Of a stretch of 64,000 bases of DNA, positions 812 to 56,777 are shown piece after piece. The stretch covers positions 2,035,501 through 2,099,500 of the forward strand of contig NZ_CALSBP010000002.1 of assembly GCF_943373825.1 (NCBI RefSeq). Reading direction: 5' to 3'. Both the position numbers and the translations under genes were made by a program. Below the pieces are notes generated by a model. The model was not told where the DNA came from, ran no database searches, and was given only the letters and a program-made list of their open reading frames with translations. The first letter of the stretch is position 1, and each line of letters opens with the position of its first letter. The DNA is from Aquimarina spinulae (GTDB lineage: Bacteria; Bacteroidota; Bacteroidia; Flavobacteriales; Flavobacteriaceae).

Positions 812-855
812 ATGACGGATATCATAGTTATTTTATGCTATCTGATTTATTTTTA
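812..855 (+). promoter_or_regulatory. FNR-type operator plus -7 element for usp-cls-patatin-crp operon
   Basis: ATGACGGATATCAT (812-825) is a perfect TGAY-N4-RTCA palindrome. Exactly 22 nt after it comes TATTTTTA (848-855), a TAnnTTTG-type -7 element with a final G-to-A change. This geometry recurs at the other TGAY sites and suits an activator bound around -41/-43. Confidence 0.7.
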
Positions 856-875
856 GAACTATAAATCTTTTACAC

Positions 876-1715
876 ATGAAAAACATCCTTCTTCCCACCG
901 ACTTTTCAGACAATGCCAGAAATGCAATACATTATGCTGTAGAGTTTTTTAAAAATGAACTTTGCACTTTTCACCTCTTTAATGTACAGAAAGCATCTCA
1001 TTATACTACAGATGATTTAATGGCTGCTCCAGCTAATACTACAATACACCAATCGGTAATTAGCGATACTAAAAAGAAACTTAGTCAAATGGTCAAAGAA
1101 CTAACCGACCAATATCCAAATCAAAACTATACATTTAATACCATTACCGACTATGATGTCTTTATAGATGCTATACGACAAGTGGTTAAATCTAAGAATA
1201 TCGATATAATCATTATGGGAACAAATGGTGCTACAGGAGCATCAGAGGTGGTTTTTGGCAGTAATACACTTAATGTTATTCGCAAAATAGACTGCCCTAT
1301 AATAGCCATTCCTCAAGGGCATAAATTTAAAGATCCAAAAACCATTTTATATGCTATAGACTACTGGGATCATTTTAACACAGAAGGTATCGAGCCTTTA
1401 ATGGATACTATTATAAAACATAAATCTTCTTTACGGGTTCTTAAAATCAAAGAAGATGATACTATTACTGTAGCCGATTTTGATGACAAAAAACATATGA
1501 AGGAGTTTTTTAAAGAAATAAATCATACATTTCACTCTATTATTAATGTACCAACTGCTTTAGCTATTAATAGTTTTGTGCAAATCATGGATATTGATAT
1601 GACGGCTATGTTTATCAAAAGAGAAACATTTTTAGATCGATTTTTTAAGGGGTCAGAAACCTCTAAAATAAGTTATGGAACAAGAGTGCCTCTTTTAATT
1701 ATGCACAGCCAATAA
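876..1715 (+). CDS. universal stress protein, UspA family (two-domain length)
   Basis: A 279-residue protein beginning MKNILLPTDFSDNA, the typical first strand of UspA-fold proteins. The nucleotide-binding signature G-x2-G-x9-G-S is complete in the N-terminal domain (GTNGATGASEVVFGSN). The C-terminal half has the length of a second Usp domain but no such signature. It is one of eight proteins of this type in the window. It heads an operon: the cardiolipin synthase gene starts 24 bp after its stop. The FNR-type site at 812-825 suggests induction at low oxygen. Usp proteins bind ATP and aid survival in starvation or hypoxia in other bacteria; the specific role here is unknown. Confidence 0.9.
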   Translation: MKNILLPTDFSDNARNAIHYAVEFFKNELCTFHLFNVQKASHYTTDDLMAAPANTTIHQSVISDTKKKLSQMVKELTDQYPNQNYTFNTITDYDVFIDAIRQVVKSKNIDIIIMGTNGATGASEVVFGSNTLNVIRKIDCPIIAIPQGHKFKDPKTILYAIDYWDHFNTEGIEPLMDTIIKHKSSLRVLKIKEDDTITVADFDDKKHMKEFFKEINHTFHSIINVPTALAINSFVQIMDIDMTAMFIKRETFLDRFFKGSETSKISYGTRVPLLIMHSQ

Positions 1716-1739
1716 ATCTTATAAAACTCATACAATAAA

Positions 1740-3161
1740 ATGTTATTATATATTGCTACTACGCTTTATATCCTGCTGGGAATTTTTATTGTTATACGAC
1801 TGCTTTTAAATGGAATGCGGCCTACTAAAACATTGGCTTGGCTTCTTACTATTTTTACGATTCCTGTTGGTGGCATCTTTTTGTACTTAATGCTTGGTAG
1901 AAATCGTAGAAAAAATAAATTATTCCGATTAAAACATACACCAAAAGTAACTTCATACATCGCAAAAGCATTGGATCAATATTCTTCAATAACAGAAGAA
2001 GAATATGCAGAACACCACAAAATCATTTCTCTAATTACCAAAAACTCCTACTTTGCTCCCTGTACAGGAAATAACGTGAAATTGCTTAAAAATGGTGAAG
2101 CTACTTTTCAAGCCATATTTGACGCTTTAGAGAACGCAGAGCATTTTATTCATTTAGAATATTACATTTTTGAAGAAGGTAAATTAACATCTGATCTTTT
2201 CGAGCTTTTTCAGAAAAAAGTAAAAAACGGAGTAAAAGTACGTGTATTATACGATGGTATAGGTAGTATGTCTTTGAGTAAAAAGTATATCAAAAAACTA
2301 CAAAACATAGGAGTCGAAATCCATAAATTCTTGCCTATAAAATTTGGTAAATTTTTATCATCGATAAACTATAGAAACCATCGTAAGATCATAGTAATAG
2401 ACGGTAAGATTGCATTTACAGGAGGTATCAACGTATCTGATAAATACGTAAAAGGTGATGCTAACCTAGGGGTTTGGCATGATATGCATTTACAACTCAA
2501 TGGTCCCGTTGTTCATAGTCTTCAGGCCATTTTTGCAATGGATTGGTATATGATAAGTGCTAATGATGAAGTTCTGGACACTTCATATTTTCATACCTAT
2601 AAAAAGACAGAAGGTTCTACAGCCCAAATCGTACATAGTGGCCCGGATTCTGATTTTTCGGCAACCCAACAGATGTATTTTTCTATAATTAATGAAGCCA
2701 AAGACTATATCTATATTACAAACCCCTATATTATCCCTGGAGAATCCATTCTGGATGCATTAAAAGTAGCCTCAATGAGTGGAATTGATGTAAGAGTGCT
2801 ACTTTCAGAAAAATCGGATAACGTTATAGTCAAATGGTGTATTCGTTCTTATTTTGAAGATCTGCTACAGGCGGGAGTAAAAATACACCTGTTCTCTGAA
2901 GGTTTTATACACAGTAAAACCATTGTCGCCGACAGTACCATATCGTCTGTAGGAACAACTAACCTGGATGTTAGAAGTTTTGAACAAAACTATGAGGTAA
3001 ATGCAGTAATCTACGACGATAATTTTGCTATAGAATTAAGAGATGATTTTTTGAGAGACATTAAAAATAGTAAACAATTAGATTTTAACACTTTTATACA
3101 ACGCCCCTGGAGTGAAAAATTAAAAGAAGGTTTTGCCAAAATCTTTAGTCCGGTTTTGTAA
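1740..3161 (+). CDS. cls: cardiolipin synthase, two-HKD phospholipase D family
   Basis: The protein (473 aa) has two N-terminal hydrophobic segments (about residues 1-22 and 32-52), then two phospholipase-D active-site motifs: HxK(x4)D at H214/K216/D221 and at H391/K393/D398. This matches bacterial ClsA in length and arrangement. ClsA condenses two phosphatidylglycerol molecules to cardiolipin and glycerol at the inner membrane. It sits between a usp gene (24 bp upstream) and a patatin phospholipase gene (about 8 bp downstream), so the operon pairs lipid synthesis with lipid hydrolysis under one low-oxygen-type promoter. Confidence 0.93.
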   Translation: MLLYIATTLYILLGIFIVIRLLLNGMRPTKTLAWLLTIFTIPVGGIFLYLMLGRNRRKNKLFRLKHTPKVTSYIAKALDQYSSITEEEYAEHHKIISLITKNSYFAPCTGNNVKLLKNGEATFQAIFDALENAEHFIHLEYYIFEEGKLTSDLFELFQKKVKNGVKVRVLYDGIGSMSLSKKYIKKLQNIGVEIHKFLPIKFGKFLSSINYRNHRKIIVIDGKIAFTGGINVSDKYVKGDANLGVWHDMHLQLNGPVVHSLQAIFAMDWYMISANDEVLDTSYFHTYKKTEGSTAQIVHSGPDSDFSATQQMYFSIINEAKDYIYITNPYIIPGESILDALKVASMSGIDVRVLLSEKSDNVIVKWCIRSYFEDLLQAGVKIHLFSEGFIHSKTIVADSTISSVGTTNLDVRSFEQNYEVNAVIYDDNFAIELRDDFLRDIKNSKQLDFNTFIQRPWSEKLKEGFAKIFSPVL

Positions 3162-3169
3162 ATTTATTG

Positions 3170-3955
3170 ATGAAAATGAAAGCATTTAAAAACATAGGGA
3201 TAGTACTCTCTGGCGGAGGATTTAAAGGTGTTGCGCACATAGGAGTTATACACGCCCTTGAGGAAGCCGGAATAACCGTTGATTTTGTTTCGGGTGCCAG
3301 TGCAGGAGCTATTGTAGGATCACTATATGCTGGGGGTTATGCTCCAGAGGAAATAAAAAATTTCTTTACCAAAACCCCTTTATTCAAATTAAATCGGTTC
3401 TCCCGAAAAAAAGCTGGGTTTTTAGATTCTGAAAAATTTTATAATGACTTGCTTACGTATTTCCCCGAAAACTCCTTTGAATCCTTACATAAAAAACTAT
3501 TTGTTACAGCAACCAATCTTATAGAAGGAACAACAAAAGTATTTAATACAGGAGAGTTGATAAAACCTTTATTGGCATCTGCTGCATTTCCCGGTGTTTT
3601 TACTCCGGTAACCATTAATAATGAATTATATGCAGATGGTGGAATTTTGGATAATTTCCCGGTATCACCGCTCAAAAAACATTGTGACCTGATTATTGGT
3701 GTAGATGTATCTCCGATTAGGAAACCAAAAATTTCTGATTTTAAGCATTCATATAACGTTATGCAACGCGCTTATTACCTTAGAGCTATGCCAAATGCCG
3801 AAGTTAAGTTTAATCTATGCGATATTATAATTCAACCTAAGAAATTGGTTAATCATGGTATTTTTAGCAGTAGTAGTTTGGATAAAATATATGATCTTGG
3901 ATATCAGGAAGCAAAATTACAATTAGGATTATTCCTAAAAAACCTAGAAGGATGA
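3170..3955 (+). CDS. patatin-like phospholipase (RssA/YchK type)
   Basis: The oxyanion motif GGGFKG (residues 15-20), the nucleophile elbow GASAG (S44) and the DGG motif with D156 make up the patatin Ser-Asp dyad. At 261 aa it has the compact single-domain length of RssA-type proteins, with no outer-membrane barrel. I chose the ATG at 3170; the TTG one codon earlier is less likely. The gene follows cls closely and its stop overlaps the next start (ATGA at 3952-3955), so translation of the Crp-like regulator is probably coupled to it. Likely a cytoplasmic lipid acyl hydrolase; the substrate is not known. Confidence 0.9.
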   Translation: MKMKAFKNIGIVLSGGGFKGVAHIGVIHALEEAGITVDFVSGASAGAIVGSLYAGGYAPEEIKNFFTKTPLFKLNRFSRKKAGFLDSEKFYNDLLTYFPENSFESLHKKLFVTATNLIEGTTKVFNTGELIKPLLASAAFPGVFTPVTINNELYADGGILDNFPVSPLKKHCDLIIGVDVSPIRKPKISDFKHSYNVMQRAYYLRAMPNAEVKFNLCDIIIQPKKLVNHGIFSSSSLDKIYDLGYQEAKLQLGLFLKNLEG

Positions 3956-4584
3956 TTAAAGAAATAAAAAATAAATATGGTCACCTTTTTGAAGACGAAT
4001 TGCTCGAAGAAATTAATCAGGTAGGAACTTTTAAAGAAATCCCCGAAGGCTTTGAACTCATCAAACCCGGAAGCTATATTAAATTTATGCCTTTGATCAT
4101 TAGTGGTGCTATAAAAGTGCTTAGAGGAGATAATGATGGCGACGAATTATTATTATATTTTTTAGAACAAGGAGATACCTGTGCAATGACATTATCTTGC
4201 TGCCTGGGGCATCATAAAAGTGAGATTAAAGCCATTGCTGAGACAGATACCAAATTAGTAATGATTCCTATCGAAAAAATGGAAGAATGGACAACAAAAT
4301 ACAAATCCTGGAGAGGTTTTGTTTTTAGTAGTTATCATAAACGATTAGTAGAAACCATTGAAACCATAGACAGTATTGCTTTTCTAAATATGGATGATCG
4401 TTTATTAAAGCACCTTAAGGACAAAACCAAAATCAGTCATACCAACATTATCAATACTACACATCAGCAAATTGCATATGATCTTCATACGTCTAGAGTT
4501 GTAATCTCCCGATTGCTTAAAAAACTTGAGAAAAAAGGTGTTGTTAAACTTAACAGAAACAATATCGAAGTATTAGAAATGTAA
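3952..4584 (+). CDS. Crp/Fnr-family transcriptional regulator with atypical recognition helix and a Cys trio
   Basis: This 210-aa protein has an N-terminal cNMP-binding-type beta-roll and a C-terminal winged helix-turn-helix (about 166-200, TTHQQIAYDLHTSRVVISRL). In FNR and CRP the recognition helix carries Glu four residues before the key Arg to read TGA half-sites. Here R187 is kept but that position is V183, so another half-site is expected. C77, C83 and C84 lie together just after the EQGDT turn and could form a thiol, persulfide or metal sensor. It is the last gene of the usp-cls-patatin operon (4-bp ATGA overlap). The GTAAC-N4-GTTAC operators at 4628, 8681, 10216 and 42541 are its best target candidates (inference). 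Confidence 0.88.
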   Translation: MIKEIKNKYGHLFEDELLEEINQVGTFKEIPEGFELIKPGSYIKFMPLIISGAIKVLRGDNDGDELLLYFLEQGDTCAMTLSCCLGHHKSEIKAIAETDTKLVMIPIEKMEEWTTKYKSWRGFVFSSYHKRLVETIETIDSIAFLNMDDRLLKHLKDKTKISHTNIINTTHQQIAYDLHTSRVVISRLLKKLEKKGVVKLNRNNIEVLEM

Positions 4585-4809: not shown

Positions 4810-7800
4810 ATGCAACGACTATTATCTGTTTTATCTACACCATTGATTAAAATTTTAATGCTCATTACTATTGGGCAAAACGCTTATTCACAAGGAGAAA
4901 AAGATATACTATTAGCTTCTCAATACTACAAAAAGGCAGATTCATTACTCACCGAAGAAGTTTACAAAAACTCTATCGATTTTTTTGAAAAATCTCTTTT
5001 ACTATATCAAAAAAACAAGGATTGGGAAAAGGCAGCAAATTGCTTTAACAAAATATCTAGTATACAAAACAAGATTTCTAATTTCACAAAATCTCTTGAG
5101 AATGCTAATAATGCTTTAGAAATTTGTGAGAAACATTTACAAGATAATAGTGAAGAAAAGGCAAATGCTTTTGATAATATAGGTCATTATCATGAAAATA
5201 ATTCTCCTGCTTTTCAAAAAGCGTTAGATTATTTTCAAAAAGCATTAGAAATTCGTTTAAAAATCTCTCCAAAAGATCCTAAAAACATTGCTTTATCTTA
5301 TGATAATATTGGGGTACTATACCACAGGCAAGGAGGGATTCCTATGGCTATAAAAAACTACGATAGAGCATTAGAAATCAGACTTAAAAATTATGGAGAA
5401 AACCACCCGATAACTTCAAAATCTTATATTAAAATTGGGATGCTAAATAGAATTCAAGGCAAAAACCAAGAAGCAATATCTAACTTTAATAAAGCACTAG
5501 ATATTTTAATTCAAAAATATGGCGAAGATCACATAAAAATAGCTAATCTACATTCGCGTATTGCAGGCTCATACACGTTTCTATCAGCCTACGAAAAGGC
5601 AGAATTTCACATAAAAAAAGCATTAGAAATAAGAACAAATAGTAATAGTGAGGATCGTAAATCATTAGCAAGTCTTTATTATAAATTAGGAATGCTTTAT
5701 ATAGATACGGATAGATTTAAATTATCCGAAAAAAAATATCAAAAGGCATTAGAGATATATACCGAATTATATGGGGATCAAAATATTCATGTTGCTAATG
5801 CATATTATGGTTTAGGAAGTCTTTATGGTATCATGGGGTTTTATGATAGAAAATTGGACTATTTACAAAAATCGTTAAAGATATATCTAAAAAAAGCTAA
5901 AAATCATTCTGCTTTAAGTAACATTTATCATAATATGGGTAATACTTATGTTGATAAAGGAGCTTATGAAAAGGCGTTGCAGTTTTATAAAAAATCTATA
6001 GACATCTCTATTAAAACTGTCGGAAAAGAACATTATCTGGTTTCATATGGATATAGTGGTATGGCATCAGTGTATCAAAATCAAAACAATTATGACCTTG
6101 CACTTGAGTATAATAATAAATCGCTAAAAATTAGAATAAGTAATTTTGGGGAAGATCATCCTATCGTTGCTACATCTTATAATAAAATTGGAGATGTTTT
6201 TTTAAAAAAGGAACAATATGACAATGCATTACATTACTATAAAGCTGCCTTAAATGTATATAAGAAAACATTTAATACAGATTATCTTGAAACGGCTAAA
6301 TCTCTAGCAAAAATAGGGGTGTTAAAACAAGAAAAAAAACAATTTGATGAAGCATTGCATTATTTTAATGAATCCTTAGAAATGTATAAAAGATTATACG
6401 TAGAAAATAATGGGGTTATAGCAGATATATATAATCATATAGCAAAAACATATTCTTATTCTGAAAAATACCAAGATGCATTACAAAACTACGACAATGC
6501 TCAAAAAGCAAATAACAAATATAAAATCGGTGAAATTAAAAACAACAATACATCATCTTATAATAATTATATAGACCCTAATATTTCATTAACCACCTTA
6601 AAAGGAAAAGCAAAGATTTATAAAGATTTATATCAACAGAATAATGATCTCAATGATCTAATTCATGCCATTAATATTTATCTAAAAATAGATCCCTTAA
6701 TCAATACTATTAGGCAAACTTTTACAGGTCATCACGACAAGGTGAATTTTGCTCGAATTACAAAAGAAATTTACCATGAAGCAATAGAATGTCATATGTT
6801 GTTATATGCAGCAAAAAAAGACCCAAAATCGTTGGAAAAAGCTTTTTATTACGCCGAAAAAAGTAAAGCCAATATTCTAAAAGAACTACTCACTAATACA
6901 AACGCAAAAAAGTTTACTGGATTACCCGAAGAAATTTTAGTTTTAGAAAAAAAATTAAGGATTGATTATGCTTTTTATCAATCTAAAATCAAACAAGAAT
7001 TCTCTAATCAGAAAATAGACACTTCTAAAATTGCTTTTTACGAAAACAACCTTTTTGATATTAACCAACGACAAGATTCTTTAAACTTAGTTATAGAAAA
7101 AAAATATTCAAAATATTATCAATTTAAACATAAAAATACTATTGTATCAATACCACAAATCCAAGAACAACTAAATGAAAATAGTACTCTATTGGAGTTT
7201 TTTACATCAGATAGTAATACCTATGCTTTTACAATTAACAAAAACACTATTACGGTACAAAAATTAATTACACCAAAACTTATTGACAAAATAGAACGTT
7301 TTAGGAACAGTATTATATCTAAAGATATACATGAATATAAAACAATAGGAAATAATTTATATAATCAATTGATCACTCCTGTTATCGATCAATTAATCGG
7401 AGATGAATTGATAATTATTCCTGATGGTCCTCTATGGCAACTTGATTTTGAACTCCTACTCACTAAAAAAGAGAGTTCTAATAACCCTTCCTTATTACCC
7501 TATATGTTGCGAGACTATATAACCACTTATACAAACTCTGCCAATTTATTGTTCACACCCATTACAACAAATGCTCAGCCTGTTACTACAAATTTTCAGT
7601 CAAAGCCAAAACAGGAATGCTTAGCATTTTCATTTTCAAATAATACACAAGATACTTTAAAAAATGTTTTAAGTTTAGCCATTCTTAGAGATGCTAGTGA
7701 TGATCTTCCTGGCACTAGAAAAGAAATCAAAGCAATCTCAAACATTATTGATGGGCAATATTACTTTGGAAAACAAGCTGTAGAGTCTAATTTTAAAAAA

Positions 7801-8358
7801 TATGCAGGACAATATAATATTCTTCATCTAGCTTTACACGGAGATATTGATAACGAAAACCCTAATAATTCCAAACTTTATTTTACGAAAAGTAACGATT
7901 CTATAGAAGACGATTTATTATATAGTCATGAATTATTTGCTCTGGATATTCCTGCAGAGCTTACTGTATTGAGTGCCTGTAATACTGGAACTGGAAAAAT
8001 TGCCAAAGGAGAAGGAATTATGAGTTTAGGAACTGCATTTCAGTATGCAGGAACCGAAAGCTTATTACTTACCCGTTGGGAAGTATCTGATCAAACGACT
8101 CCAGAGTTAATGAAATATTTTTATACTCATTTACGATCAGGAATGAACAAAGGAAAAGCACTACAGCAAGCGAAGCTTGATTACCTTTCTACTGGTAATA
8201 TAAACCGACTAGATCCTTTTTATTGGGGAGGGTTTTATCTCGTAGGAAATTCTGCTCCAGTTTCTTTTCATAATAATTATACTTGGTTATATTGGGTAAT
8301 AGGATTAGGAGGTTTAATATGGCTACTATTTTTGTTTAGGAAAAAAAATAACAACTAA
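4810..8358 (+). CDS. TPR-repeat CHAT-domain protein (caspase-like), C-terminal membrane anchor
   Basis: This 1182-aa protein has an N-terminal signal-like segment, a long array of tetratricopeptide repeats of the 42-residue kinesin-light-chain type (roughly 30-580, with recurring A-L-x-I-R/Y and KSL positions) and a linker. A C-terminal CHAT domain follows, with the caspase-type dyad H1010 (LALHGD) and C1057 (LSACNTG). A hydrophobic helix at about 1155-1175 ends in RKKNNN. CHAT proteases are caspase relatives; TPR-CHAT proteins cleave specific partners in some defence systems, but many Bacteroidota copies have no known role. It is monocistronic, and its promoter nearly matches that of the persulfide dioxygenase gene, which places it in the same regulon. 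The partner is not visible. Confidence 0.88.
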   Translation: MQRLLSVLSTPLIKILMLITIGQNAYSQGEKDILLASQYYKKADSLLTEEVYKNSIDFFEKSLLLYQKNKDWEKAANCFNKISSIQNKISNFTKSLENANNALEICEKHLQDNSEEKANAFDNIGHYHENNSPAFQKALDYFQKALEIRLKISPKDPKNIALSYDNIGVLYHRQGGIPMAIKNYDRALEIRLKNYGENHPITSKSYIKIGMLNRIQGKNQEAISNFNKALDILIQKYGEDHIKIANLHSRIAGSYTFLSAYEKAEFHIKKALEIRTNSNSEDRKSLASLYYKLGMLYIDTDRFKLSEKKYQKALEIYTELYGDQNIHVANAYYGLGSLYGIMGFYDRKLDYLQKSLKIYLKKAKNHSALSNIYHNMGNTYVDKGAYEKALQFYKKSIDISIKTVGKEHYLVSYGYSGMASVYQNQNNYDLALEYNNKSLKIRISNFGEDHPIVATSYNKIGDVFLKKEQYDNALHYYKAALNVYKKTFNTDYLETAKSLAKIGVLKQEKKQFDEALHYFNESLEMYKRLYVENNGVIADIYNHIAKTYSYSEKYQDALQNYDNAQKANNKYKIGEIKNNNTSSYNNYIDPNISLTTLKGKAKIYKDLYQQNNDLNDLIHAINIYLKIDPLINTIRQTFTGHHDKVNFARITKEIYHEAIECHMLLYAAKKDPKSLEKAFYYAEKSKANILKELLTNTNAKKFTGLPEEILVLEKKLRIDYAFYQSKIKQEFSNQKIDTSKIAFYENNLFDINQRQDSLNLVIEKKYSKYYQFKHKNTIVSIPQIQEQLNENSTLLEFFTSDSNTYAFTINKNTITVQKLITPKLIDKIERFRNSIISKDIHEYKTIGNNLYNQLITPVIDQLIGDELIIIPDGPLWQLDFELLLTKKESSNNPSLLPYMLRDYITTYTNSANLLFTPITTNAQPVTTNFQSKPKQECLAFSFSNNTQDTLKNVLSLAILRDASDDLPGTRKEIKAISNIIDGQYYFGKQAVESNFKKYAGQYNILHLALHGDIDNENPNNSKLYFTKSNDSIEDDLLYSHELFALDIPAELTVLSACNTGTGKIAKGEGIMSLGTAFQYAGTESLLLTRWEVSDQTTPELMKYFYTHLRSGMNKGKALQQAKLDYLSTGNINRLDPFYWGGFYLVGNSAPVSFHNNYTWLYWVIGLGGLIWLLFLFRKKNNN

Positions 8359-13965: not shown

Positions 13966-14409
13966 TTAATCTATTTCAATTACCTTTTTAGGTTGTTCTT
14001 TTGTTTCTTCTTTTTTTAGAAGATTAAGAGTAAGCACTCCATTTTTGTAGACAGCTTTAACCTTTTCATTCTGGTTTACGCTGGTAGGTAACTGTAATTT
14101 TCTATCGAACTCGTTATAACTAAATTCTCTACGTGTGTACCCTTTATCCTCTTCTACTTCTTCTTTACTTTTTTGAGCACAAATGTGTAACACATCATCT
14201 TCCATAGTCACTTCAATATCTTTCTTTGAAAAACCAGGAACTGCGAGTTCAATTTCAAAATTATCCTTGTTTTCTTTGACATTCATTGCAGGAAGATTTT
14301 TGTCTTTTATAAAAAAATCGTCTGCAAAAAAATCATCTGTATCTAACCATGTAGAAACACGGTCATTGATCCAGGGAAATCTGTTTTTGTTAAATTTAAT
14401 TAATGACAT
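13966..14409 (-). CDS. Hsp20/alpha-crystallin family small heat shock protein
   Basis: 147 aa with a central alpha-crystallin domain from about 38 (NMKVNVKENKDNFEIELAVPGF-like start) to about 130, ending in the hallmark GVLTLNLLKKEE. A short N-terminal arm and a charged C-terminal tail match the usual length. Small heat shock proteins hold unfolded clients without ATP. The FNR-type site at 14472-14485, 22 nt from a -7 element, suggests low-oxygen induction, as for the alpha-crystallin of the mycobacterial dormancy regulon. Confidence 0.93.
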   Translation of the reverse strand: MSLIKFNKNRFPWINDRVSTWLDTDDFFADDFFIKDKNLPAMNVKENKDNFEIELAVPGFSKKDIEVTMEDDVLHICAQKSKEEVEEDKGYTRREFSYNEFDRKLQLPTSVNQNEKVKAVYKNGVLTLNLLKKEETKEQPKKVIEID

Positions 14410-14441: not shown

Positions 14442-14485
14442 TAAAATTAAGCTGACAACGGGTATATTAAAATGACAATTATCAG
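14442..14485 (-). promoter_or_regulatory. FNR-type operator plus -7 element for hsp20
   Basis: On the minus strand CTGATAATTGTCAT (14485-14472) has a perfect TGAT-N4-GTCA core. TAATTTTA (14449-14442) follows after 22 nt, with the G-to-A variant of TAnnTTTG. Confidence 0.7.
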
Positions 14486-14931: not shown

Positions 14932-14957
14932 TTTTTCTAGGTTTTTAAAGCTTACCA

Positions 14958-15001
14958 AAAAGGTACTTAACCTCTATAAATTAAAAAGTGATAATTATCA
15001 G
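14958..15001 (-). promoter_or_regulatory. FNR-type operator plus -7 element for the coiled-coil gene
   Basis: The TGATAATTATCA core (14989-15000) is a perfect palindrome. TACCTTTT (minus strand, 14965-14958) follows the 14-mer after 22 nt. The site lies in the short gap after the nitroreductase stop and decides the start of the downstream gene. Confidence 0.65.
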
Positions 15002-19653: not shown

Positions 19654-19680
19654 CACTTTAGGTCTTTAGGATTAGTTTTA

Positions 19681-19724
19681 TAAATGTATAGGTATAGCCT
19701 TGTAAAAACTATGATAATTATCAG
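19681..19724 (-). promoter_or_regulatory. FNR-type operator plus -7 element for usp copy 1
   Basis: ATGATAATTATCAG (19711-19724) has a perfect TGATAATTATCA core. The minus-strand TACATTTA (19688-19681) follows after 22 nt. The operator overlaps the stop codon of the gene at 19721. Confidence 0.7.
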
Positions 19725-20596: not shown

Positions 20597-20640
20597 TAAA
20601 ACTAGTTTTATAATAGCAAGAATACTATGACAAATCTCAT
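20597..20640 (-). promoter_or_regulatory. imperfect FNR-type operator plus -7 element for usp copy 2
   Basis: ATGACAAATCTCAT (20627-20640) departs from TGAY-N4-RTCA at one core base. On the minus strand TAGTTTTA (20604-20597) lies 22 nt away, as at the other sites. Confidence 0.55.
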
Positions 20641-23262: not shown

Positions 23263-23289
23263 TGTTTGCTTTTTTTGATATGTTATCCT

Positions 23290-23333
23290 CAAAATTAGAT
23301 AATTGCAGATGCAAAAACTATGATTTTTGTCAG
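23290..23333 (-). promoter_or_regulatory. FNR-type operator plus perfect -7 element for the usp block
   Basis: ATGATTTTTGTCAG (23320-23333) contains TGAT-N4-GTCA. The minus-strand TAATTTTG (23297-23290) is an exact TAnnTTTG, 22 nt away. Confidence 0.72.
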
Positions 23334-23343: not shown

Positions 23344-23387
23344 ATGACATTTGTCATATTATATAAATGCATACTTTTTCATATTTG
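23344..23387 (+). promoter_or_regulatory. FNR-type operator plus -7 element for ccoI
   Basis: ATGACATTTGTCAT (23344-23357) is a perfect palindromic site. CATATTTG (23380-23387), one mismatch from TAnnTTTG, follows after 22 nt. It is only 10 bp from the operator of the divergent usp block. Confidence 0.7.
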
Positions 23388-27235: not shown

Positions 27236-27279
27236 ATGACAATTATCATGCTTTAAGACCCTATTTGCGAATAGTTTTA
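27236..27279 (+). promoter_or_regulatory. distal FNR-type operator plus -7 element, nap cluster
   Basis: ATGACAATTATCAT (27236-27249) is a perfect site. TAGTTTTA (27272-27279) lies 22 nt downstream. The next gene starts at 27497. Confidence 0.6.
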
Positions 27280-27423
27280 TCCGTATATTATGAGGTGAAA
27301 AAAGACATCTAACTATTTGTTTATTCTCTAATCTTAGAAAAATAAATAGCATACTCAGAGTATCATTAAAAATGAGAATGATGGTTGATTTTGAGCCTTG
27401 TATTTAATCAATTTAAACTAAAC

Positions 27424-33822: not shown

Positions 33823-33829
33823 TAAAATT

Positions 33830-36115: not shown

Positions 36116-36159
36116 CTGATAAATGTCATTTTTTTAGAAAATGTTCGCGCATACTTTTG
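36116..36159 (+). promoter_or_regulatory. FNR-type operator plus perfect -7 element, cco operon
   Basis: CTGATAAATGTCAT (36116-36129) has TGAT-N4-GTCA. TACTTTTG (36152-36159), an exact TAnnTTTG, follows after 22 nt; ccoS starts 20 bp later. Confidence 0.78.
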
Positions 36160-36179: not shown

Positions 36180-36374
36180 ATGGGTGTAATCTATATACTC
36201 TTAACGATTAGTATTATCGTTGCCATCGTCTTTTTTATTAGCTTTATTATATCGGTCAGAAATGGTCAATATGATGATGTCTATACTCCTTCTGTTAGGA
36301 TGCTTTTTGATGATGAACTTATAAAAGAAAGCAAAGAAAAATCTTCGGAATCCACTAAAACTAAACAATCTTAA
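36180..36374 (+). CDS. ccoS: cbb3-type cytochrome oxidase assembly protein CcoS
   Basis: 64 aa: one N-terminal membrane helix (about 3-25), then the CcoS pattern RNGQYDDVYTPSVRMLFDDE and a polar tail. CcoS is needed to assemble the heme/copper centres of CcoN. It is the first gene of the oxidase operon, 1 bp from ccoNO. Confidence 0.9.
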   Translation: MGVIYILLTISIIVAIVFFISFIISVRNGQYDDVYTPSVRMLFDDELIKESKEKSSESTKTKQS

Positions 36375-48496: not shown

Positions 48497-48540
48497 CAAA
48501 TGTATTAGGATGTACTCATGAAAAATATGACAAAAATCAG
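48497..48540 (-). promoter_or_regulatory. FNR-type operator plus perfect -7 element for usp
   Basis: ATGACAAAAATCAG (48527-48540) contains TGAC-N4-ATCA. The minus-strand TACATTTG (48504-48497) is an exact TAnnTTTG, 22 nt away. Confidence 0.72.
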
Positions 48541-48559: not shown

Positions 48560-49624
48560 TTATTCTACTAACTGAAGACCAGGTAAATCCAAAATTTTTA
48601 TGTTACGCCCTTCAATTTCAATCAATCCATCTTTTTTAAAACTGGATAGTGTGCGTATCAAACTTTCTGTCGCAATCCCGGCAACACTAGCCAAATCATT
48701 TCTGGATATTTTTATACTATCTTTAGGTTTTTTATTCAATACATCGGCAAATTGAAGTATGGTTTGAGCCGTTTTTTTACGTACCGAGCTATAGGCCATT
48801 TGTAATAATTGCTCTTTGATATCAGAAAGATTATCGGTAAGTAACTCCATTAATTCAAGAGAAATATTTTTACTCTTTTCTAATATCTCTTTTAGGTTAT
48901 TCTTTGATATTCCTGCTAATTCTGAATCTTCGACTGCTGTTGCCGATTCTAGATATGGAGTATTATCTATAAACGAAGTGAACCCCAGGAAATCATCGGT
49001 TTTGTATAAAGTAGTGATTAATTCTTTACCATTCTCATCCATTTTATGACTTTTAACAACTCCTTTTAAAATCAAATATATGTTATTAGAATGTTCTCCT
49101 TCTTCATAGATTACTTCTCCTTTTTTAAATTCAGAAATTTCACCATGATCATCAAAAAAATTCTTAAGCTCATGTAAATTTCTAAGTCCGCTATCTTCAG
49201 AAGTATTTGTTGCCGAAGTAGAAAACTCTTGATCTTTAACAATTTTAGAGAGTAATGCTGCTTTTGCAAGACGACTTTCGATTGCACTCAATAGTTCTTC
49301 TTCTTCAAAAGGTTTGGTTAGATAATCATCTGCTCCCAGATCCATTCCTTTTCGAATCTCTTTGTGTTCTGTTTTTGCAGACAAAAATATAAAAGGAATA
49401 TGATTGGTTGCTATATCATAGGATAGTGCTTCAAGTACTCCATATCCATCAACCTCTGGCATCATAATATCGCAAACAATGATGTCTGGCTTTTCTTCTT
49501 TTGCTTTGGTAATACCTACTTTTCCGTTAGGAGATGTGATTACTTTATAATCCGAAAGCTCTAACAGTTCTGCGGTATTTTCTCTAAGTGCCGTATCATC
49601 TTCGATTAAAAGAATAGTTTTCAT
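48560..49624 (-). CDS. response regulator with receiver domain fused to Crp/Fnr domains
   Basis: 354 aa. The receiver domain (about 1-120) has the phosphoacceptor D52 (VCDIMMPE) and K104 (LTKPF). The Crp-type beta-roll follows at about 145-260, and a helix-turn-helix at about 303-340. The recognition helix ATESLIRTLSSF keeps E320 and R324, the FNR/CRP pair that reads TGA. No cysteine cluster is present, so it cannot sense oxygen like FNR and needs phosphorylation. It is translated with the kinase (4-bp ATGA overlap). It is the likely regulator of the TGAY sites. Confidence 0.9.
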   Translation of the reverse strand: MKTILLIEDDTALRENTAELLELSDYKVITSPNGKVGITKAKEEKPDIIVCDIMMPEVDGYGVLEALSYDIATNHIPFIFLSAKTEHKEIRKGMDLGADDYLTKPFEEEELLSAIESRLAKAALLSKIVKDQEFSTSATNTSEDSGLRNLHELKNFFDDHGEISEFKKGEVIYEEGEHSNNIYLILKGVVKSHKMDENGKELITTLYKTDDFLGFTSFIDNTPYLESATAVEDSELAGISKNNLKEILEKSKNISLELMELLTDNLSDIKEQLLQMAYSSVRKKTAQTILQFADVLNKKPKDSIKISRNDLASVAGIATESLIRTLSSFKKDGLIEIEGRNIKILDLPGLQLVE

Positions 49625-50856
49625 GATTCGTGAGTATTGGTTGTAGGTATTGTAACAATAAATGTAGACCCTTGATTTTCCTTACTTGTAAAAGTAATAC
49701 TACCCCCTAGGTTTTCCAAATGACTTTTCACAATATTTAACCCAATACCTGTTCCTTGATCTAATAAGGCATTTTCTGCCCTAAAATATCGTTTAAAAAT
49801 AAAGTCTTGTTCTTTTTTAGGAATACCAATACCTTGATCAATAATCTTAAATGTAAGGATATCATCCTCGAAACATACCTGCAAATCAATTACTGTATGT
49901 TCTCCAGAATATTTGATAGCATTATTGATTAGATTTGTAAGTACGAGTTCTAAAATCTTTTCATCAAACTCTATAACGTAATCATCAATATCCTTAGGGT
50001 AATTTATTCTCTGTCCGTCTTTAAGTAACATATTAGCATCATAAACCACTTCATTAACCACTTTACTAAGAGGGAACTGGCTATACTTATAAGTTACTTT
50101 TCCTGTTTCGAGACGTTCAATAGATAAAAAATCATTAAGGATATTATCCAGGTATTTCACTTTATTTTTTATGGTATCGAGATGCTTTTCTCTTTTTTCC
50201 TGTTGCTCGGTTTTAGTGTATTTTCCGGTAAGCGTGGCCGAAGTAAGAATACCACTTAACGGTGTTTTAAATTCATGTGAAACAAGTGAAAGGAACTTTG
50301 TTTTTAACTCACTTAAATCTCTTTCCTTTTTTAAAGATTCTTTAGTTTGAGCTTCGGCTTCCATACGAAGTTTTACTTCTTCTTTTAATTCTTGTATGGT
50401 ATGATGCAGTTCTACTGTACGTTCTTCTATTTTTTGCTCTAGCTTAGCATTTAAATCTTGTATTTGCTGTTCTTGTTGTTTTCGAAGTGTAATATCGATA
50501 ACAAGAGCCATTACATAATTATTACCATAAATTGCAAATGGGTTTAAGCCTGCTTCTACAGGAAATACCGAACCGTCTTTTCGTATTCCAAAAAGATCTC
50601 GCCCTGCACCCATATGTCGCTTTTCACTATGATCTACAAAGCCTTCAAAATGCTTTTTGTGACCGTGATGGTATTTTTTTGGTATCAGGGTATTAAGGTG
50701 TTTTCCTATCAACTCATCAGTCTCATAACCAAAAATAGTATTAGCAGATCCGTTAGTTGCCACTATTGTTTGTTTCTCATTCACCACAATGATACCTTCT
50801 GAAATAGCCTCAGAAAGTAATTTGAAAATGTTATTGTCTTTTTCGAAAACTTTCAT
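49621..50856 (-). CDS. PAS sensor histidine kinase, FixL-like
   Basis: 411 aa. A PAS domain (about 10-125) has H66 at the FixL heme-ligand position (IPKKYHHGHKKHF) and R86 twenty residues later (HMGAGRDLFGIRKDGS), as BjFixL has H200 and R220. A coiled coil (130-185), a dimerisation/phosphoacceptor domain with H194 (SLVSHEFKTPL) and a catalytic domain with N box LTNLINNAIKYS follow, ending GTGIGLNIVKSHLENLGG. It has no membrane helix. It likely senses oxygen via heme, though the same PAS class also occurs without heme. Confidence 0.88.
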   Translation of the reverse strand: MKVFEKDNNIFKLLSEAISEGIIVVNEKQTIVATNGSANTIFGYETDELIGKHLNTLIPKKYHHGHKKHFEGFVDHSEKRHMGAGRDLFGIRKDGSVFPVEAGLNPFAIYGNNYVMALVIDITLRKQQEQQIQDLNAKLEQKIEERTVELHHTIQELKEEVKLRMEAEAQTKESLKKERDLSELKTKFLSLVSHEFKTPLSGILTSATLTGKYTKTEQQEKREKHLDTIKNKVKYLDNILNDFLSIERLETGKVTYKYSQFPLSKVVNEVVYDANMLLKDGQRINYPKDIDDYVIEFDEKILELVLTNLINNAIKYSGEHTVIDLQVCFEDDILTFKIIDQGIGIPKKEQDFIFKRYFRAENALLDQGTGIGLNIVKSHLENLGGSITFTSKENQGSTFIVTIPTTNTHES

Positions 50857-50860: not shown

Positions 50861-50935
50861 CAAAAGTAATCATTTTGATTTGTTACCAGAACTGATTTAT
50901 GTCATAAAAAATATGACTCAGTCTGATTACATTTA
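50861..50935. promoter_or_regulatory. bidirectional FNR-type operator between kinase and TerB-like genes
   Basis: CTGATTTATGTCAT (50892-50905). To the right, TACATTTA (50928-50935) lies 22 nt away. To the left, TACTTTTG (minus strand, 50868-50861) lies 23 nt away, a perfect -7. One site may drive both directions and give the kinase operon autoregulation. Confidence 0.6.
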
Positions 50936-50963: not shown

Positions 50964-51371
50964 ATGAATACTGCTCAAAATACAGGAATTATATTTTATC
51001 AAAACCTTGGCAAGCTATTTTATGCAATTGCTGCGTCGGATAAAATAGTTCGTAAATCAGAATATGATTCTTTACGAAAAATTGTAAAAACAGAATGGTT
51101 AAAAGTAGATGATATTGAAGATGAGTTTGGTGTTGATGCTTCTTTTCAAATCGAAATCGTTTTTGACTGGCTTGACTATGAAGAATTGAGTGCAGAAGAG
51201 TGTTTTATTCAATTCGAAACCTTTTTTAAAGAACACCAATCTCGTTTTACAGATAAACTAAAACAATTAATCTGGAGTACAGCTAATGCTATTGCAGGCG
51301 CATTTTCTGGTAAAAATAAATCCGAATTAATGATGCTGGGGCGATTAAAATTAATCTTTGAAAAACAGTAA
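50964..51371 (+). CDS. small TerB-like helical protein
   Basis: 135 aa, all helical and acidic: FYQNLGKLFYAIAASDKIVRKSEYDSLRKIV resembles the start of TerB/co-chaperone DjlA N-terminal domains, which often pair with DnaJ. I do not assign a certain family. The DnaJ-like gene starts 18 bp after it, and the FNR-type operator at 50892 lies upstream, so it would belong to the low-oxygen set. Confidence 0.65.
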   Translation: MNTAQNTGIIFYQNLGKLFYAIAASDKIVRKSEYDSLRKIVKTEWLKVDDIEDEFGVDASFQIEIVFDWLDYEELSAEECFIQFETFFKEHQSRFTDKLKQLIWSTANAIAGAFSGKNKSELMMLGRLKLIFEKQ

Positions 51372-51389: not shown

Positions 51390-52274
51390 ATGGAGTTTAT
51401 TGATTACTATAAAATATTAGGGGTTTCAAAAAATGCTTCAGATAGTGACATCAAAAAAGCGTATAGAAAATTGGCCAGAAAATATCATCCTGATTTAAAT
51501 CCTAATGATGAAGAAGCTGAAAAAAAGTTTAAAGAGATTAATGAAGCCAATGAAGTATTAAGTAATTCCGAAAACCGAAAAAAATACGATCAATACGGTA
51601 AAGATTGGAAACATGCTGAAGAGTTTGAAAAAGCCAAACAATCACAGCATCAATACAAAAGTACCGGGCAACAACATTACAGAAATCATTCAGAAAGTGA
51701 TTTCTCTGACTTTTTTGAATCTATGTTTGGAGGCTCAAGAAGAAGTGCAACATATGGCAGAACCCGATATAGAGGTGAAGACTACAATGCAGAGCTACAT
51801 CTTAATTTAACCGATGTCTATAAAACACATAAAAGAACGCTAACTGTTAACAAAAAAAATATTCGAATCACAATTCCTGCAGGAGTTGAAAACGGACAAA
51901 TTATAAAAATCAAAAACCATGGAGGCTCAGGAATCCAAGGTGGACCTAATGGCGACCTGTATATCACTTTTGTTATCGAAAACAAAACTCCTTTTAAACG
52001 CAACAAAAGTGATCTTTATTTACATGTTGATATTGATCTATACACAGCAGTCTTAGGCGGTGAAATTATGATTGAAACTCTTGACGGAAAAGTAAAACTA
52101 AATGTAAAACCTGAAACTCAGAATGACACCAAAATAAAACTAAAAGGAAAAGGATTTCCTATATATAAAAAAGAAGGACAATTTGGAGATCTCTTTATTA
52201 CATATGCTATCAAGATCCCAAAAAACCTGTCAGAACAACAAAAAGAATTATTTAGAACATTATCCAAGCTTTAA
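51390..52274 (+). CDS. DnaJ-class chaperone, CbpA-like (no zinc finger)
   Basis: 294 aa. A J domain with the HPD motif ([10 protein letters not shown]) at about 5-70, then a Gly/Ser-rich linker (about 85-125), then the two-lobed substrate-binding C-terminal domain ([26 protein letters not shown]). No CxxCxGxG zinc finger is present, so it is of the CbpA type. A CbpM-like gene follows 10 bp downstream, the usual partner. Confidence 0.9.
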
Positions 52275-52702: not shown

Positions 52703-52780
52703 ATTCGTCGACCAAGCTGATCAATATCATATTTTTTGATGGTTCGCTATCTTACTTTTATATGAATTAAAAACTTTCGT

Positions 52781-53668
52781 ATGAAAACTCTTATCACTTG
52801 TATTGTTTTTTTAAGTTTCATCGCTTGTAAAAAACAAACGCCTATTCAAAAATCATCAGAGCAAAAAGAAACTGAGCAACAACATACAGAACAAAAAGCA
52901 GAAGATACTGTATCTGTTTTTTCTGAAGAAAGCCTGGAGTTAGATCAGGAAAAAACAAAAGCCATAAAAAGAGAACGATTAATCACTGCCAAAGATGATA
53001 AAACTCAATTACAGGAATTAGTAGTTTCTAAAAGCTTCTTAAAAGAAGAAGATCTTTATGTTTTAGATTACCAATACCCGTACCTAAATGAGAAAATTGA
53101 TCCTTTATACTCGGTATTTAATGATTTTATTTCAGAAAACTATCTGAATATTGAAAAAACCGAAAATCAAATTCTTGAAGACAAAGAGTTACTTTGTGAT
53201 ACCTTAAAAATTAATAGGTTTAGAGATAAAAGAATTATTGATTATAAAATCTATAGTGTAAAAAGTGATCGTATTAGTGTTGTCCTTTACAAAGAGAATT
53301 ATTATTCTGGAATGTTATATTCTACATATCTCTTTGATTGTGTAAACTTTGATCTTAAGAAACATAATTTCATTTATTTTGATGATTTCTTTGAAACTGG
53401 CTCAGAAGAAGAAGTGTTTACTACTATAAATACAATTATAAAGGACGGTATTAGTTCTGGAGAATTGTATTATGACTGTTGGGAGCTTTCAAAAGGGGAT
53501 TTTAAAGCTTATAAAAACAATTTTGTGGTAAATGATGATACCGTAGAATTTTATTTTGATGATTGTGTTATTTGCCCTTCCTATACGGGAACATATTCTA
53601 TAGAAATCCCCATTAAAGACATAATGCATCTTATCAAAAAATATAATGACCGCCCGATAGTAAGTTAA
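52781..53668 (+). CDS. lipoprotein, DUF3298/RsiV-like
   Basis: 295 aa with a signal and lipobox SFIAC (Cys at about 16). A low-complexity Glu/Lys/Gln-rich linker follows (residues 20-60). The C-terminal domain (about 85-290) reads DYQYPYLNEKIDPLYSVFNDFI, YYSGMLYSTYLFDCVNFDLKKHNFIYFDDFF, which fits DUF3298/RsiV-type folds of Bacteroidota. Such domains resemble lysozyme-responsive anti-sigma factors, but no sigma factor gene is adjacent. Function unknown. Confidence 0.7.
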   Translation: MKTLITCIVFLSFIACKKQTPIQKSSEQKETEQQHTEQKAEDTVSVFSEESLELDQEKTKAIKRERLITAKDDKTQLQELVVSKSFLKEEDLYVLDYQYPYLNEKIDPLYSVFNDFISENYLNIEKTENQILEDKELLCDTLKINRFRDKRIIDYKIYSVKSDRISVVLYKENYYSGMLYSTYLFDCVNFDLKKHNFIYFDDFFETGSEEEVFTTINTIIKDGISSGELYYDCWELSKGDFKAYKNNFVVNDDTVEFYFDDCVICPSYTGTYSIEIPIKDIMHLIKKYNDRPIVS

Positions 53669-55441: not shown

Positions 55442-56281
55442 TTAGATTTTAAATGTAATCACAGGCTTATTTGCATGGTTTGCAATATCCTCACCTATAC
55501 TTCCATTAAAGAAATGTGCCAAACCACGACGGCCATGGGTCGGAATCGCAATGATATCTGCATTGATCTTTTTACAATAATTAAAAACTCCGCTTTCTAC
55601 ACTGTAGTCATTAAAGTAGATTACCTTATCATACATATCCAGATTACCAGAATCTGCTTTAAAAAGAAATTCTTTTACTCTTTCTTCTATTTGATCCGAA
55701 CTTCTAAATTGTTCTCCTGGTAGATTAACATATAGCAAATGTATATTAGCATCCAGAGCATTAAATAACTTCATCGCATTGTGATATGCTTTAATATTTT
55801 CTATTTTAAAATCACAGGCAAATACAACTTCTTTTAAAGCAAAGTTATCTACAGGGTTCTTTATAACCAACACAGGAATATCTGATGTACGCACTACTTT
55901 TTCTGTGTTTGATCCTATAAACACTTCTTCTCGCAAACCACTAATACCATGGGATCCCATAACGATAAGATCTGCTTCATTTTCATGAGCAACTTCATTA
56001 ATTTCACTAAAAATCTTATAGTTTTGTACCGTCTCTGTAATTTTAATACCTTTTAGGTATTCTTTATCTAGAAAGGTACTAAACCTTTTTTCGGCGAGTT
56101 TCATATAATACATCGCTTCATTTGCCTCCTGAGTTTCATTTTTAATTAATACGGCTTCAGACAATCCCAGCATATGCAATACTATGATTTCAGCATTTTG
56201 TTGTTTCGCTAATAATGCCGCAACCTGTAATGCGTATTCTGAATATTCTGAAAAGTCTACGGGTACAAGAATTTTTTTCAT
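55442..56281 (-). CDS. universal stress protein, UspA family (divergent copy)
   Basis: 279 aa starting MKKILVPVDFSEYSEYALQVAALLAK, closer to canonical Usp than the tandem copies. ATP motif: GSHGISGLREEVFIGSN, with ten rather than nine residues before the last G-S. The C-terminal domain also carries IAIPTHGRRGLAHFFNGSIGE, a second Usp-like phosphate loop. The FNR-type operator at 56333-56346 has a perfect -7 element. Confidence 0.9.
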   Translation of the reverse strand: MKKILVPVDFSEYSEYALQVAALLAKQQNAEIIVLHMLGLSEAVLIKNETQEANEAMYYMKLAEKRFSTFLDKEYLKGIKITETVQNYKIFSEINEVAHENEADLIVMGSHGISGLREEVFIGSNTEKVVRTSDIPVLVIKNPVDNFALKEVVFACDFKIENIKAYHNAMKLFNALDANIHLLYVNLPGEQFRSSDQIEERVKEFLFKADSGNLDMYDKVIYFNDYSVESGVFNYCKKINADIIAIPTHGRRGLAHFFNGSIGEDIANHANKPVITFKI

Positions 56282-56302
56282 GATTATCTGTTTTTATACT
56301 AT

Positions 56303-56346
56303 CAAAATTAGAAGATGTTATTGCCAATTAAAATGATAATTATCAT
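56303..56346 (-). promoter_or_regulatory. FNR-type operator plus perfect -7 element for usp
   Basis: ATGATAATTATCAT (56333-56346) is a perfect palindrome. The minus-strand TAATTTTG (56310-56303) lies 22 nt away. No matching -7 element exists towards acyP on the other side. Confidence 0.75.
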
Positions 56347-56412
56347 ATCAATACAATACATAACATGTCTTAAAAATAATTTTTATAGTATCTTTAAATA
56401 CTACTACAGACA

Positions 56413-56685
56413 ATGCAAAAACATTATAACATCACAGTAAAAGGAAAAGTCCAGGGAGTTTGGTATCGAAAAAGCACCCAGGAAAAAGCCAGAATACTCC
56501 AAATTACAGGAAACGTAAGAAACCTACCTAACGGAAATGTTTACATAGAAGCCGAAGGAAATAAAAACCAACTTAACCTCTTATTAGAATGGTGTGCTAT
56601 AGGCCCAGAATTTGCAAAAGTAGATGATCTATCTTTTGAAGAAGGTGACTTGCAACTTTTTAAAAGCTTCGATATTTTGCGTTAG
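56413..56685 (+). CDS. acyP: acylphosphatase
   Basis: 90 aa, the exact family length. GKVQGVWYRKSTQEKA holds the catalytic R19 and the phosphate cradle; N37 in NVRNLPNG positions water. It hydrolyses acyl phosphates such as 1,3-bisphosphoglycerate. It is monocistronic and starts 67 bp after the operator of the divergent usp gene. Confidence 0.93.
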   Translation: MQKHYNITVKGKVQGVWYRKSTQEKARILQITGNVRNLPNGNVYIEAEGNKNQLNLLLEWCAIGPEFAKVDDLSFEEGDLQLFKSFDILR

Positions 56686-56733
56686 ATAATCTTTATTAAT
56701 TAAATCATAAATTAATTTAAGATCTTGTTAAGT

Positions 56734-56777
56734 ATGACATTTCTCATTTTTAACCCTTTTAATGGGTGGTATTTTTA
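56734..56777 (+). promoter_or_regulatory. imperfect FNR-type operator plus -7 element for peroxiredoxin
   Basis: ATGACATTTCTCAT (56734-56747) has one core mismatch from TGAY-N4-RTCA. TATTTTTA (56770-56777) lies 22 nt away. Confidence 0.5.

Follow-up and report, generated by a model that had tools for sequence, protein, structure and literature searches.

The FixL-FixJ-FixK cascade of Rhizobiales is composed of a PAS histidine kinase (FixL), a response regulator in which a receiver is joined to a NarL/LuxR-type helix-turn-helix (HTH) (FixJ), and a stand-alone, receiver-free protein of the Crp/FNR family (FixK) that serves Crp/FNR-type operators, with a cbb3 oxidase and a copper ATPase among the targets. 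FNR and Anr of Proteobacteria recognize TGAT-N4-ATCA half-sites through a Glu and an Arg of the recognition helix, act from class II sites near -41.5, and in FNR, an oxygen sensor, a [4Fe-4S] cluster is ligated by an N-terminal set of cysteines plus Cys122. Here a 64-kb stretch of the Aquimarina spinulae genome is described (contig C2, 2035501-2099500, 33% GC; "the window" means this whole stretch, about 1% of a 6.24-Mb genome in three contigs), in which a PAS kinase and a response regulator with a CRP-type output (the receiver-CRP protein) are encoded among genes for universal stress proteins (usp), small heat-shock proteins (hsp20), a cbb3 oxidase (cco) and a periplasmic nitrate reductase (nap). 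The reading proposed, with a probability of about 0.78, is that the promoters of these genes are class II and activator-dependent and form a single low-oxygen regulon under the kinase-controlled receiver-CRP protein. The two regulatory genes are the following.

48560..49624, minus strand: response regulator of 354 amino acids (aa), receiver plus cyclic-nucleotide-binding (cNMP) fold plus HTH_Crp_2; proposed activator, from Pfam, conservation and co-occurrence
49621..50856, minus strand: PAS-HisKA-HATPase kinase with a FixL-like PAS (Pfam), overlapping the response regulator gene by 4 nt

Comparison with described systems

This pair resembles the FixL-FixJ-FixK cascade in its FixL-type PAS kinase, its predicted phosphorylated receiver, its Crp/FNR-type operators and its cbb3 oxidase and copper ATPase targets. 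It is not a member of that group, because the output of FixJ is of the NarL type and FixK has no receiver: in Aquimarina both would be replaced by one protein with a cNMP and HTH_Crp_2 output and a receiver with Asp52 and Lys104, acting directly and with no fixK relay. With FNR and Anr the receiver-CRP protein shares the half-site logic, the recognition-helix Glu and Arg and the class II site near -41.5; it differs from them in its additional receiver, in an outer operator base that is A or C instead of T, and in a -7 element of the form TAnnTTTG. It is not an FNR, because it lacks the FNR cysteines (both the N-terminal set and Cys122).

DosR/DevR of Mycobacterium (DevR with a NarL-type output domain) and OsdR of Streptomyces combine two-component control with many usp genes around the regulator, a nitroreductase, heat-shock proteins and nitrate reductase (PMC5069765). 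The Aquimarina island shares usp, heat-shock and nitrate reductase genes with them, as well as an Acg/Rv3131-family nitroreductase (15014-15988; 203 bits against an NCBIfam cut-off of 199), whereas the NarL-type output domain and the operator of DosR/DevR are different. Only the gene content is alike, and the comparison does not mean that the regulators share an ancestor. The segment 15014-18271 (minus strand), located between usp and hsp20 genes, contains this nitroreductase, an MBL/beta-CASP ribonuclease-like protein (below cut-off) and an ATP-cone-like protein (named by eye), a set that recalls DosR regulons. The LXA locus of Burkholderia cenocepacia (PMC6127331) is a physical island with six usp genes and with genes for one heat-shock and one nitroreductase-like protein, for which an Anr-like CRP-family regulator is suspected, its homologue in B. 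dolosa being FixK under FixLJ. It is a similar low-oxygen island, although it belongs to another phylum and has a stand-alone CRP-family regulator instead of a receiver fusion. These parallels suggest that islands of usp, heat-shock, nitroreductase and respiration genes have been assembled under different regulators in different phyla.

A study of Crp/FNR regulation that includes a Flavobacteriales genome (PMC8510549) proposes a MalR-like carbon regulator, and the terms "universal stress" and "receiver" are absent from its main text. Among the open-licence papers listed, judged by their titles and the beginnings of their abstracts, none describes a receiver-CRP regulator or FixL/FixK system in Bacteroidetes and none names a transcription factor for low-oxygen control in Flavobacteriaceae, which does not prove that no such paper exists.

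Operators and promoters of the window

Fourteen operators, the number that had been reported from the sequence alone, are present and begin at 812, 14472, 14988, 19711, 20627, 23320, 23344, 27236, 36116, 48527, 50892, 52717, 56333 and 56734. They make 15 directed sites facing 15 genes or operons, 50892 being used both ways. At 13 of these sites a TAnnTTT stands exactly 22 nt past the 14-mer (equal to 23 nt when counted from the 12-base core); the spacing is 23 nt at one (50892, minus strand), and at one more (23344) the -7 element is degenerate and reads CATATTTG. The fixed spacing that had been claimed is therefore confirmed, while the two sequence patterns proposed with it hold in part. TAnnTTT occurs at 14 of the 15 directed sites, all except 23344, and its eighth base, expected to be G or A, is T at 14988. 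The palindrome ATGAY-N4-RTCAT is exact in four of the fourteen operators (812, 23344, 27236 and 56333), seven have C as the distal outer base, 14988 reads CTGATAATTATCAC, and 20627 and 56734 carry a core mismatch, as had been noted for two of the fourteen. The operator is asymmetric, and (A/C)TGAY-N4-RTCAT is a better consensus. The palindrome is also exact at 9972 and at 60368, both times within an open reading frame (ORF) and without a -7 element.

In 12 of the 15 cases about 16-33 nt separate the -7 element from the start codon, assuming an internal ATG for the genes at 22414 and 14515 (by eye) and ccoS as the first gene of the cco operon; the exceptions are nap (218 nt), the peroxiredoxin gene (107 nt) and the kinase gene (about 5 nt). 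The sites, and the small gene that follows one of them, are listed below.

812..855, plus strand: composite promoter of usp 876-1715 (usp by Pfam), operator 812-825, -7 element TATTTTTA at 848-855
14442..14485, minus strand: composite promoter of Hsp20 gene 13966-14409, operator 14472-14485, -7 element TAATTTTA; the Hsp20 orthologue has a composite in genome G090
14958..15001, minus strand: composite promoter of gene 14515-14958 (no Pfam match; probable ATG near 14931, by eye), operator 14988-15001, -7 element TACCTTTT
19681..19724, minus strand: composite promoter of usp 18802-19656 (sequence scan)
20597..20640, minus strand: composite promoter with one core mismatch, of usp 19721-20569 (sequence scan)
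23290..23333, minus strand: composite promoter of usp 22414-23292 (probable ATG near 23262, by eye) and perhaps also of the next two ORFs, operator 23320-23333
23344..23387, plus strand: operator and degenerate -7 element ahead of a CcoI-type P-type ATPase gene, 23403-25799 (ATPase by Pfam)
27236..27279, plus strand: composite promoter, with a 218-nt leader, ahead of porin-like gene 27497-28759 and napA 29011-31335 (NapA by NCBIfam)
36116..36159, plus strand: composite promoter of the cco operon, ccoS followed by fused ccoNO 36376-38577 (ccoN and ccoO above the NCBIfam cut-offs)
36180..36374, plus strand: CcoS of the FixS family, 64 aa (PF03597, E 2.8e-18), shorter than the 80-aa limit of the ORF list
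48497..48540, minus strand: composite promoter of usp 47639-48475, immediately 3' of the response regulator gene (sequence scan)
50861..50905, minus strand: promoter of the kinase/response-regulator operon through operator 50892-50905, 23-nt spacing
50892..50935, plus strand: composite promoter of 50964-51371 (no Pfam match) and DnaJ-like chaperone gene 51390-52274, operator 50892-50905
52717..52760, plus strand: composite promoter of 52781-53668 (lipoprotein-like start, by eye)
56303..56346, minus strand: composite promoter of usp 55442-56281
56734..56777, plus strand: composite promoter with one core mismatch, of peroxiredoxin gene 56884-57549

The use of operator 50892-50905 in both directions leads to the proposal that the kinase/response-regulator operon may be autoregulated. 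A long regulatory leader of ccoN (an apparent 217 nt) was rejected, as ccoS fills it. The nap leader (27280-27496, plus strand) contains no clear ORF and has a second operator-like palindrome at 27424 without a -7 element; it could be a leader RNA or hold a second site.

Enrichment and conservation of the composite promoter

The palindrome alone is modestly over-represented in the window (6 against 0.56 expected, and 31 against 13.3 when one mismatch is allowed). The exact composite of operator and -7 element, TGAYNNNNRTCA-N23-TANNTTT, matches the genome 33 times, its reversed pattern only 5 times, and 11 of the 33 are inside the window (binomial P 2e-14, a value that is overstated since the choice of the window was not blind). 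When the spacing was left free between 11 and 35 nt (TANNTTTG), 15 of 48 matches in this genome fell at 23 nt from the core, the spacings on either side had 5 and 4 and no other had more than 3, so that 24 of 48 lie within one nucleotide of the peak (binomial P = 3e-10). Downstream genes were checked for 19 of the 22 matches outside the window (leaving out three on contig C3), and at 13 of the 19 an ORF of at least 70 aa begins no more than 250 nt downstream, including L003 and L027, where the first start codon touches the -7 element. Named by eye, the targets outside the window include ClpB, a NorC-like cytochrome, a CBS-domain protein, NadA, a MoeB/ThiF-like protein, a cytochrome c, an MlaE-like permease and a PAS protein.

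Of 120 genomes of Flavobacteriaceae, each from a different genus, 113 carry the exact composite once or more, with a total of 1849 matches against 143 for the reversed pattern, which supports the composite as the family motif that the sequence-only reading had proposed. When 148 genomes were drawn from the phylum, the 15 belonging to the same family had 5-51 matches (G140 and G203 being little above their own controls), two other genomes of the same order had 13 and 12, other families of the class 1-20, and genomes outside the class 0-7. In G244, G168 and G218, which are of other families in the class, there are 20, 13 and 13 against 1, 0 and 1 reversed, so the promoter design may extend beyond the family. 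The same arrangement surrounds the relatives of the regulator gene. The best 80 of 535 confirmed receiver-CRP loci (a set that leans toward close relatives because the best were taken, and in which counts are not independent because the loci are related) contain 239 composite matches with spacings of 22-24 nt from the core, against none reversed; over spacings from 5 to 45 nt, 212 matches are found at 23 and 25 at 24, and no further value exceeds 12. A composite is located just 3' of the regulator gene and before a usp gene in 79 of the 80 loci, L174 being the miss.

The targets are conserved together with the promoter. Of the 55 composites in 15 island pieces taken from seven genomes, 31 stand before a gene whose product matches a window protein by BLAST, 22 before another ORF, and 2 before none. 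The matched targets are ccoN, ccoI, hemN, hsp20, usp, dnaJ, the gene of the 50964-51371 product, and those for peroxiredoxin, a 2-hydroxyacid dehydrogenase, the kinase and a lipoprotein, and the other 22 ORFs include, by eye, a ribosome hibernation factor, a CBS protein and an MlaE-like permease. Orthologues of the 50964-51371 product and of the DnaJ-like chaperone are preceded by composite sites in other genera; the peroxiredoxin orthologue of G101 (86% identity) carries an exact site, with a leader of 108 nt against 107 here. There is little doubt that the regulon and its geometry are real.

The receiver-CRP protein and its kinase

Residues 4-116 of the response regulator match the receiver family, and Asp52 (the phospho-acceptor), Lys104, Glu320 and Arg324 are each found in all 80 homologues. 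Its recognition helix, GIATESLIR, has the Glu and Arg (Glu320, Arg324) of the FNR type for TGA half-sites, with an Ile at what we take to be the position of Ser212 in FNR. Proteins of this kind contain one to four cysteines, none of them at FNR positions (six aligned rows). The protein is identical over its 354 residues in Aquimarina megaterium XH134 and Aquimarina sp. AU58. The 120 database entries listed give it generic names ("response regulator", "CRP-like cAMP-binding protein"). No PDB match among the best 60 of 334 spans both the receiver and the CRP parts.

The kinase PAS (residues 1-135) has FixL (1d06, E 7.4e-15) as its top PDB match, followed by a haem PAS sensor, DosP and more FixL entries. 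Against the NCBIfam FixL equivalog the kinase scores 93 bits, a small part of the cut-off of 850. In alignments with FixL 1d06 and 2cmn, His66 falls at the position of the proximal His, the haem ligand, and Arg86 at that of the distal Arg. The PAS could be aligned in 79 of the 80 loci, with His66 in 79/79, Arg86 in 76/79 and the kinase His194 in 79/79, and the kinase frame ends at the regulator gene in 75 of the 80. The match to FixL and these residues make haem-based oxygen sensing by the kinase probable. The kinases of L077, L079, L083, L086, L087, L089, L091 and L096 have an extra segment (a second PAS-like one) between the haem-type PAS and the kinase core, with the frame cut at the locus end.

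Alternation with a cysteine-bearing FNR

Many members of the family encode a stand-alone FNR of about 225 aa with an N-terminal CxxC and a Cys at the C122 position, which likely binds an iron-sulphur cluster; since the third N-terminal Cys is displaced relative to the solved FNR, this is put no higher than likely. It occurs in 68 of the 120 family genomes (70 matches, with G020 and G043, FNR-like but missing the N-terminus, excluded), and was not found in the Aquimarina genome in a search at E 1e-40. The FNR-type character attributed to the regulon from the sequence thus stands for the operator and for the DNA-binding helix, and not for the regulator itself. Full-length relatives of the receiver-CRP protein (E 1e-77 or better) occur in 54 of the 120; of 70 genomes with a match, 16 matched only in part and were excluded. 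The two regulators share the composite and overlapping targets (ccoN, hemN, ccoI and usp), and their recognition helices are nearly identical, in most rows GIATESLIR in receiver-CRP and GTATESAIR in FNR. Orthologues of ccoN, hemN and usp stand behind composites in the receiver-CRP-only G027 and the FNR-only G107 and G059, taken together, and the CcoI-type ATPase orthologue of G107 is preceded by a composite whose spacing is one base shorter. In L104 (G061) and L105 (G071) the two genes are about 1 kb apart.

The number of composites follows either regulator: the median is 26.5 in genomes with both (n=26), 16 with receiver-CRP only (n=28), 13 with FNR only (n=42) and 2 with neither (n=24), and among genomes of at least 3.0 Mb the medians are 26.5, 18, 13 and 1 (n=24, 23, 35 and 7). 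In a linear model that includes genome size and the presence of L040, another Crp-family protein of this genome, t was 8.9 for receiver-CRP, 5.5 for FNR and -1.2 for L040. Because the motif accompanies either regulator alone, and only receiver-CRP of the two is found in this Aquimarina, the receiver-CRP protein, which the sequence-only reading had named for footprinting, is the best candidate here and is probably the activator; the analysis adds the paired kinase with a FixL-like, probably haem-binding PAS. The distal outer base, more often A with FNR, may reflect the specificity of the regulator: it is A in 17 of 49 sites of receiver-CRP-only genomes (this one and G027) against 26 of 39 in FNR-only genomes (G017 and G044; P 0.005), and C in 21 of 49 against 8 of 39 (P 0.04), a difference that is suggestive only, because it comes from four genomes and dependent sites (10 of the 16 of G027 lie within 67 kb).

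The tree, which has several long branches, gives no support to a single clade of receiver-CRP and FNR against other Crp proteins; support is 99/96 for the core receiver-CRP group and 100/98 for FNR, and with the divergent L108 included the receiver-CRP group falls to 38/0.

Proposed mechanism

Upstream of the -7 element, where a -33 element would lie, the site profile has no conserved TTG (G at 5, 15, 3, 3 and 2% at profile positions 14-18), which fits promoters at which an activator takes over that contact. Mapped start sites of F. psychrophilum locate TAnnTTTG between -12 and -5 (PMC9723704). With the 22-nt gap this puts the 14-mer at -48 to -35, with its centre at -41.5, in the class II position of Crp/FNR proteins; the class II geometry proposed from the sequence is thus supported on the F. 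psychrophilum frame.

From this geometry and the domains of the pair we infer that a dimer of the response regulator would bind (A/C)TGAY-N4-RTCAT centred at about -41.5, beside or over the -33 region, and would recruit RNA polymerase to the TAnnTTT(G/A) -7 element. The neighbouring kinase would phosphorylate Asp52 and set the activity of the regulator; its PAS probably binds haem and would sense oxygen in the manner of FixL, low oxygen turning the kinase on, and the pair may also control itself. The functions of FixL, FixJ and FixK would thereby be combined in two proteins, a kinase and a phosphorylated FNR-like regulator, and in this Aquimarina the pair would take the place of the cysteine-bearing FNR that serves this promoter design in other genera. 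The predicted outputs are the cbb3 oxidase (ccoS, ccoNO and a CcoP-like protein), the CcoI-type ATPase, the periplasmic nitrate reductase, Usp, Hsp20 and DnaJ-like proteins and peroxiredoxin, with ClpB and the NorC-like cytochrome outside the window. In F. psychrophilum, oxygen limitation strongly induces the cbb3 oxidase and haem synthesis, and "fnr" is absent from the main text of that study (PMC9723704).

On a wider scale, the odds are somewhat in favour of the idea that Flavobacteriaceae share one low-oxygen regulon and geometry while swapping the sensor, which would be an iron-sulphur FNR, the haem-kinase/receiver-CRP pair, or both, with the pair lying inside, and controlling, a DosR-like usp/hsp20/cbb3/nap island. 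For a major family of marine and soil bacteria the motif provides a map of the regulon that is ready for use, together with two exchangeable candidate regulators, and it offers a natural example of kinase control replacing a redox-sensing factor without a change of operators or targets. Beyond the initial observation, the analysis contributes a likely regulator and a likely sensor, the way in which these alternate with FNR in the family, and a corrected operator.

Alternative readings

Several results weigh against the proposed regulon. The genome-wide scan suggested from the sequence finds the exact composite enriched and the composite with one mismatch near control level (184 against 157 reversed), so isolated near-misses carry no weight alone and no claim is made for weaker sites beyond the window. 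Six of the 19 examined outside matches are doubtful as promoters (L005 and L009 in ORFs, L008 and L026 distant from an ORF, L011 at an ORF start, and L028 with no ORF). In the window hemN (46177-47541), a target in other genera, has no composite of its own and is located downstream of usp 47639. A kinase-directed composite is near the frame start in only 23 of the 76 related loci that have a kinase frame; Arg86 is replaced in three of 79, and a conserved His and Arg could persist in a PAS without haem. The motif number also increases with genome size (t 2.5), and G048 (2.4 Mb, 82% complete, 6% contaminated) has 31 sites with neither regulator detected, for which either missing contigs, contamination or a third regulator may account. 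Receiver-CRP and FNR are not recovered as sisters in the tree. Finally, the genome has 11 further HTH_Crp_2 matches, one of them below cut-off, among which L040, L035 and L036 have a similar recognition helix, and the controls against them are indirect.

That the regular spacing is an effect of chance or of composition in AT-rich intergenic DNA has a negligible probability: one-mismatch palindromes are frequent in the AT-rich window and the one-mismatch composite is near its control, but the exact composite exceeds its reversed controls in the genome, in the family and in the named loci, and the spacing peak remains, so the argument against chance first drawn from the spacing holds. It is unlikely that the real activator is another Crp-family protein, such as L040, L035/L036 or the 210-aa protein at 3952-4584, with receiver-CRP merely nearby. 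There are 12 HTH_Crp_2 matches in the genome (two in the window, at 48560-49624 and 3952-4584); the helices of L040 and L035/L036 share the pattern of Glu, two residues, an aliphatic residue and Arg, and in the tree L035/L036 join FNR, though support for this is modest (85/82). Nevertheless, L040, present in 26 of 120 genomes, has no effect on motif number. Apart from this genome, G010, G063 and G093 alone contain relatives of L036 (E 1e-38 or better), and G010, the one of the three with neither main regulator, has one site. In the protein at 3952 the recognition Glu is replaced by Val. Co-occurrence thus fails to support L040 or L036 as alternative regulators.

A receiver-CRP regulon could also answer a signal other than oxygen (nitric oxide, redox state or a cyclic nucleotide), with a kinase PAS that is non-haem or differently tuned; the retained cNMP-binding fold and the presence of nap and a norC-like gene among the targets would fit this, but it is considered rather unlikely, given that FixL, followed by other haem PAS sensors such as DosP, is the closest match of the PAS, that the haem-ligand His is invariant, and that the cbb3 oxidase among the targets rises on oxygen limitation in F. 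psychrophilum. The geometry by itself does not fix the sign of regulation, so receiver-CRP might act here as a repressor or a dual regulator and not as a class II activator; this is very improbable, since a centre at -41.5 without a conserved -33 element is an activator arrangement and a repressor needs no fixed spacing.

Other features of the window

Between the genes for a ferredoxin-type and an NrfD-type protein of the nap region there is a Flavo-1 RNA (RF01705, 47.5 bits, gathering threshold 42) at 33825-33939, plus strand, an RNA for which PMC9723704 reports no clear function. The second Crp-type regulator gene (3952-4584) is accompanied by genes for a PLD protein and a patatin, downstream of which a TPR-CHAT protein is encoded at 4810-8358, plus strand.

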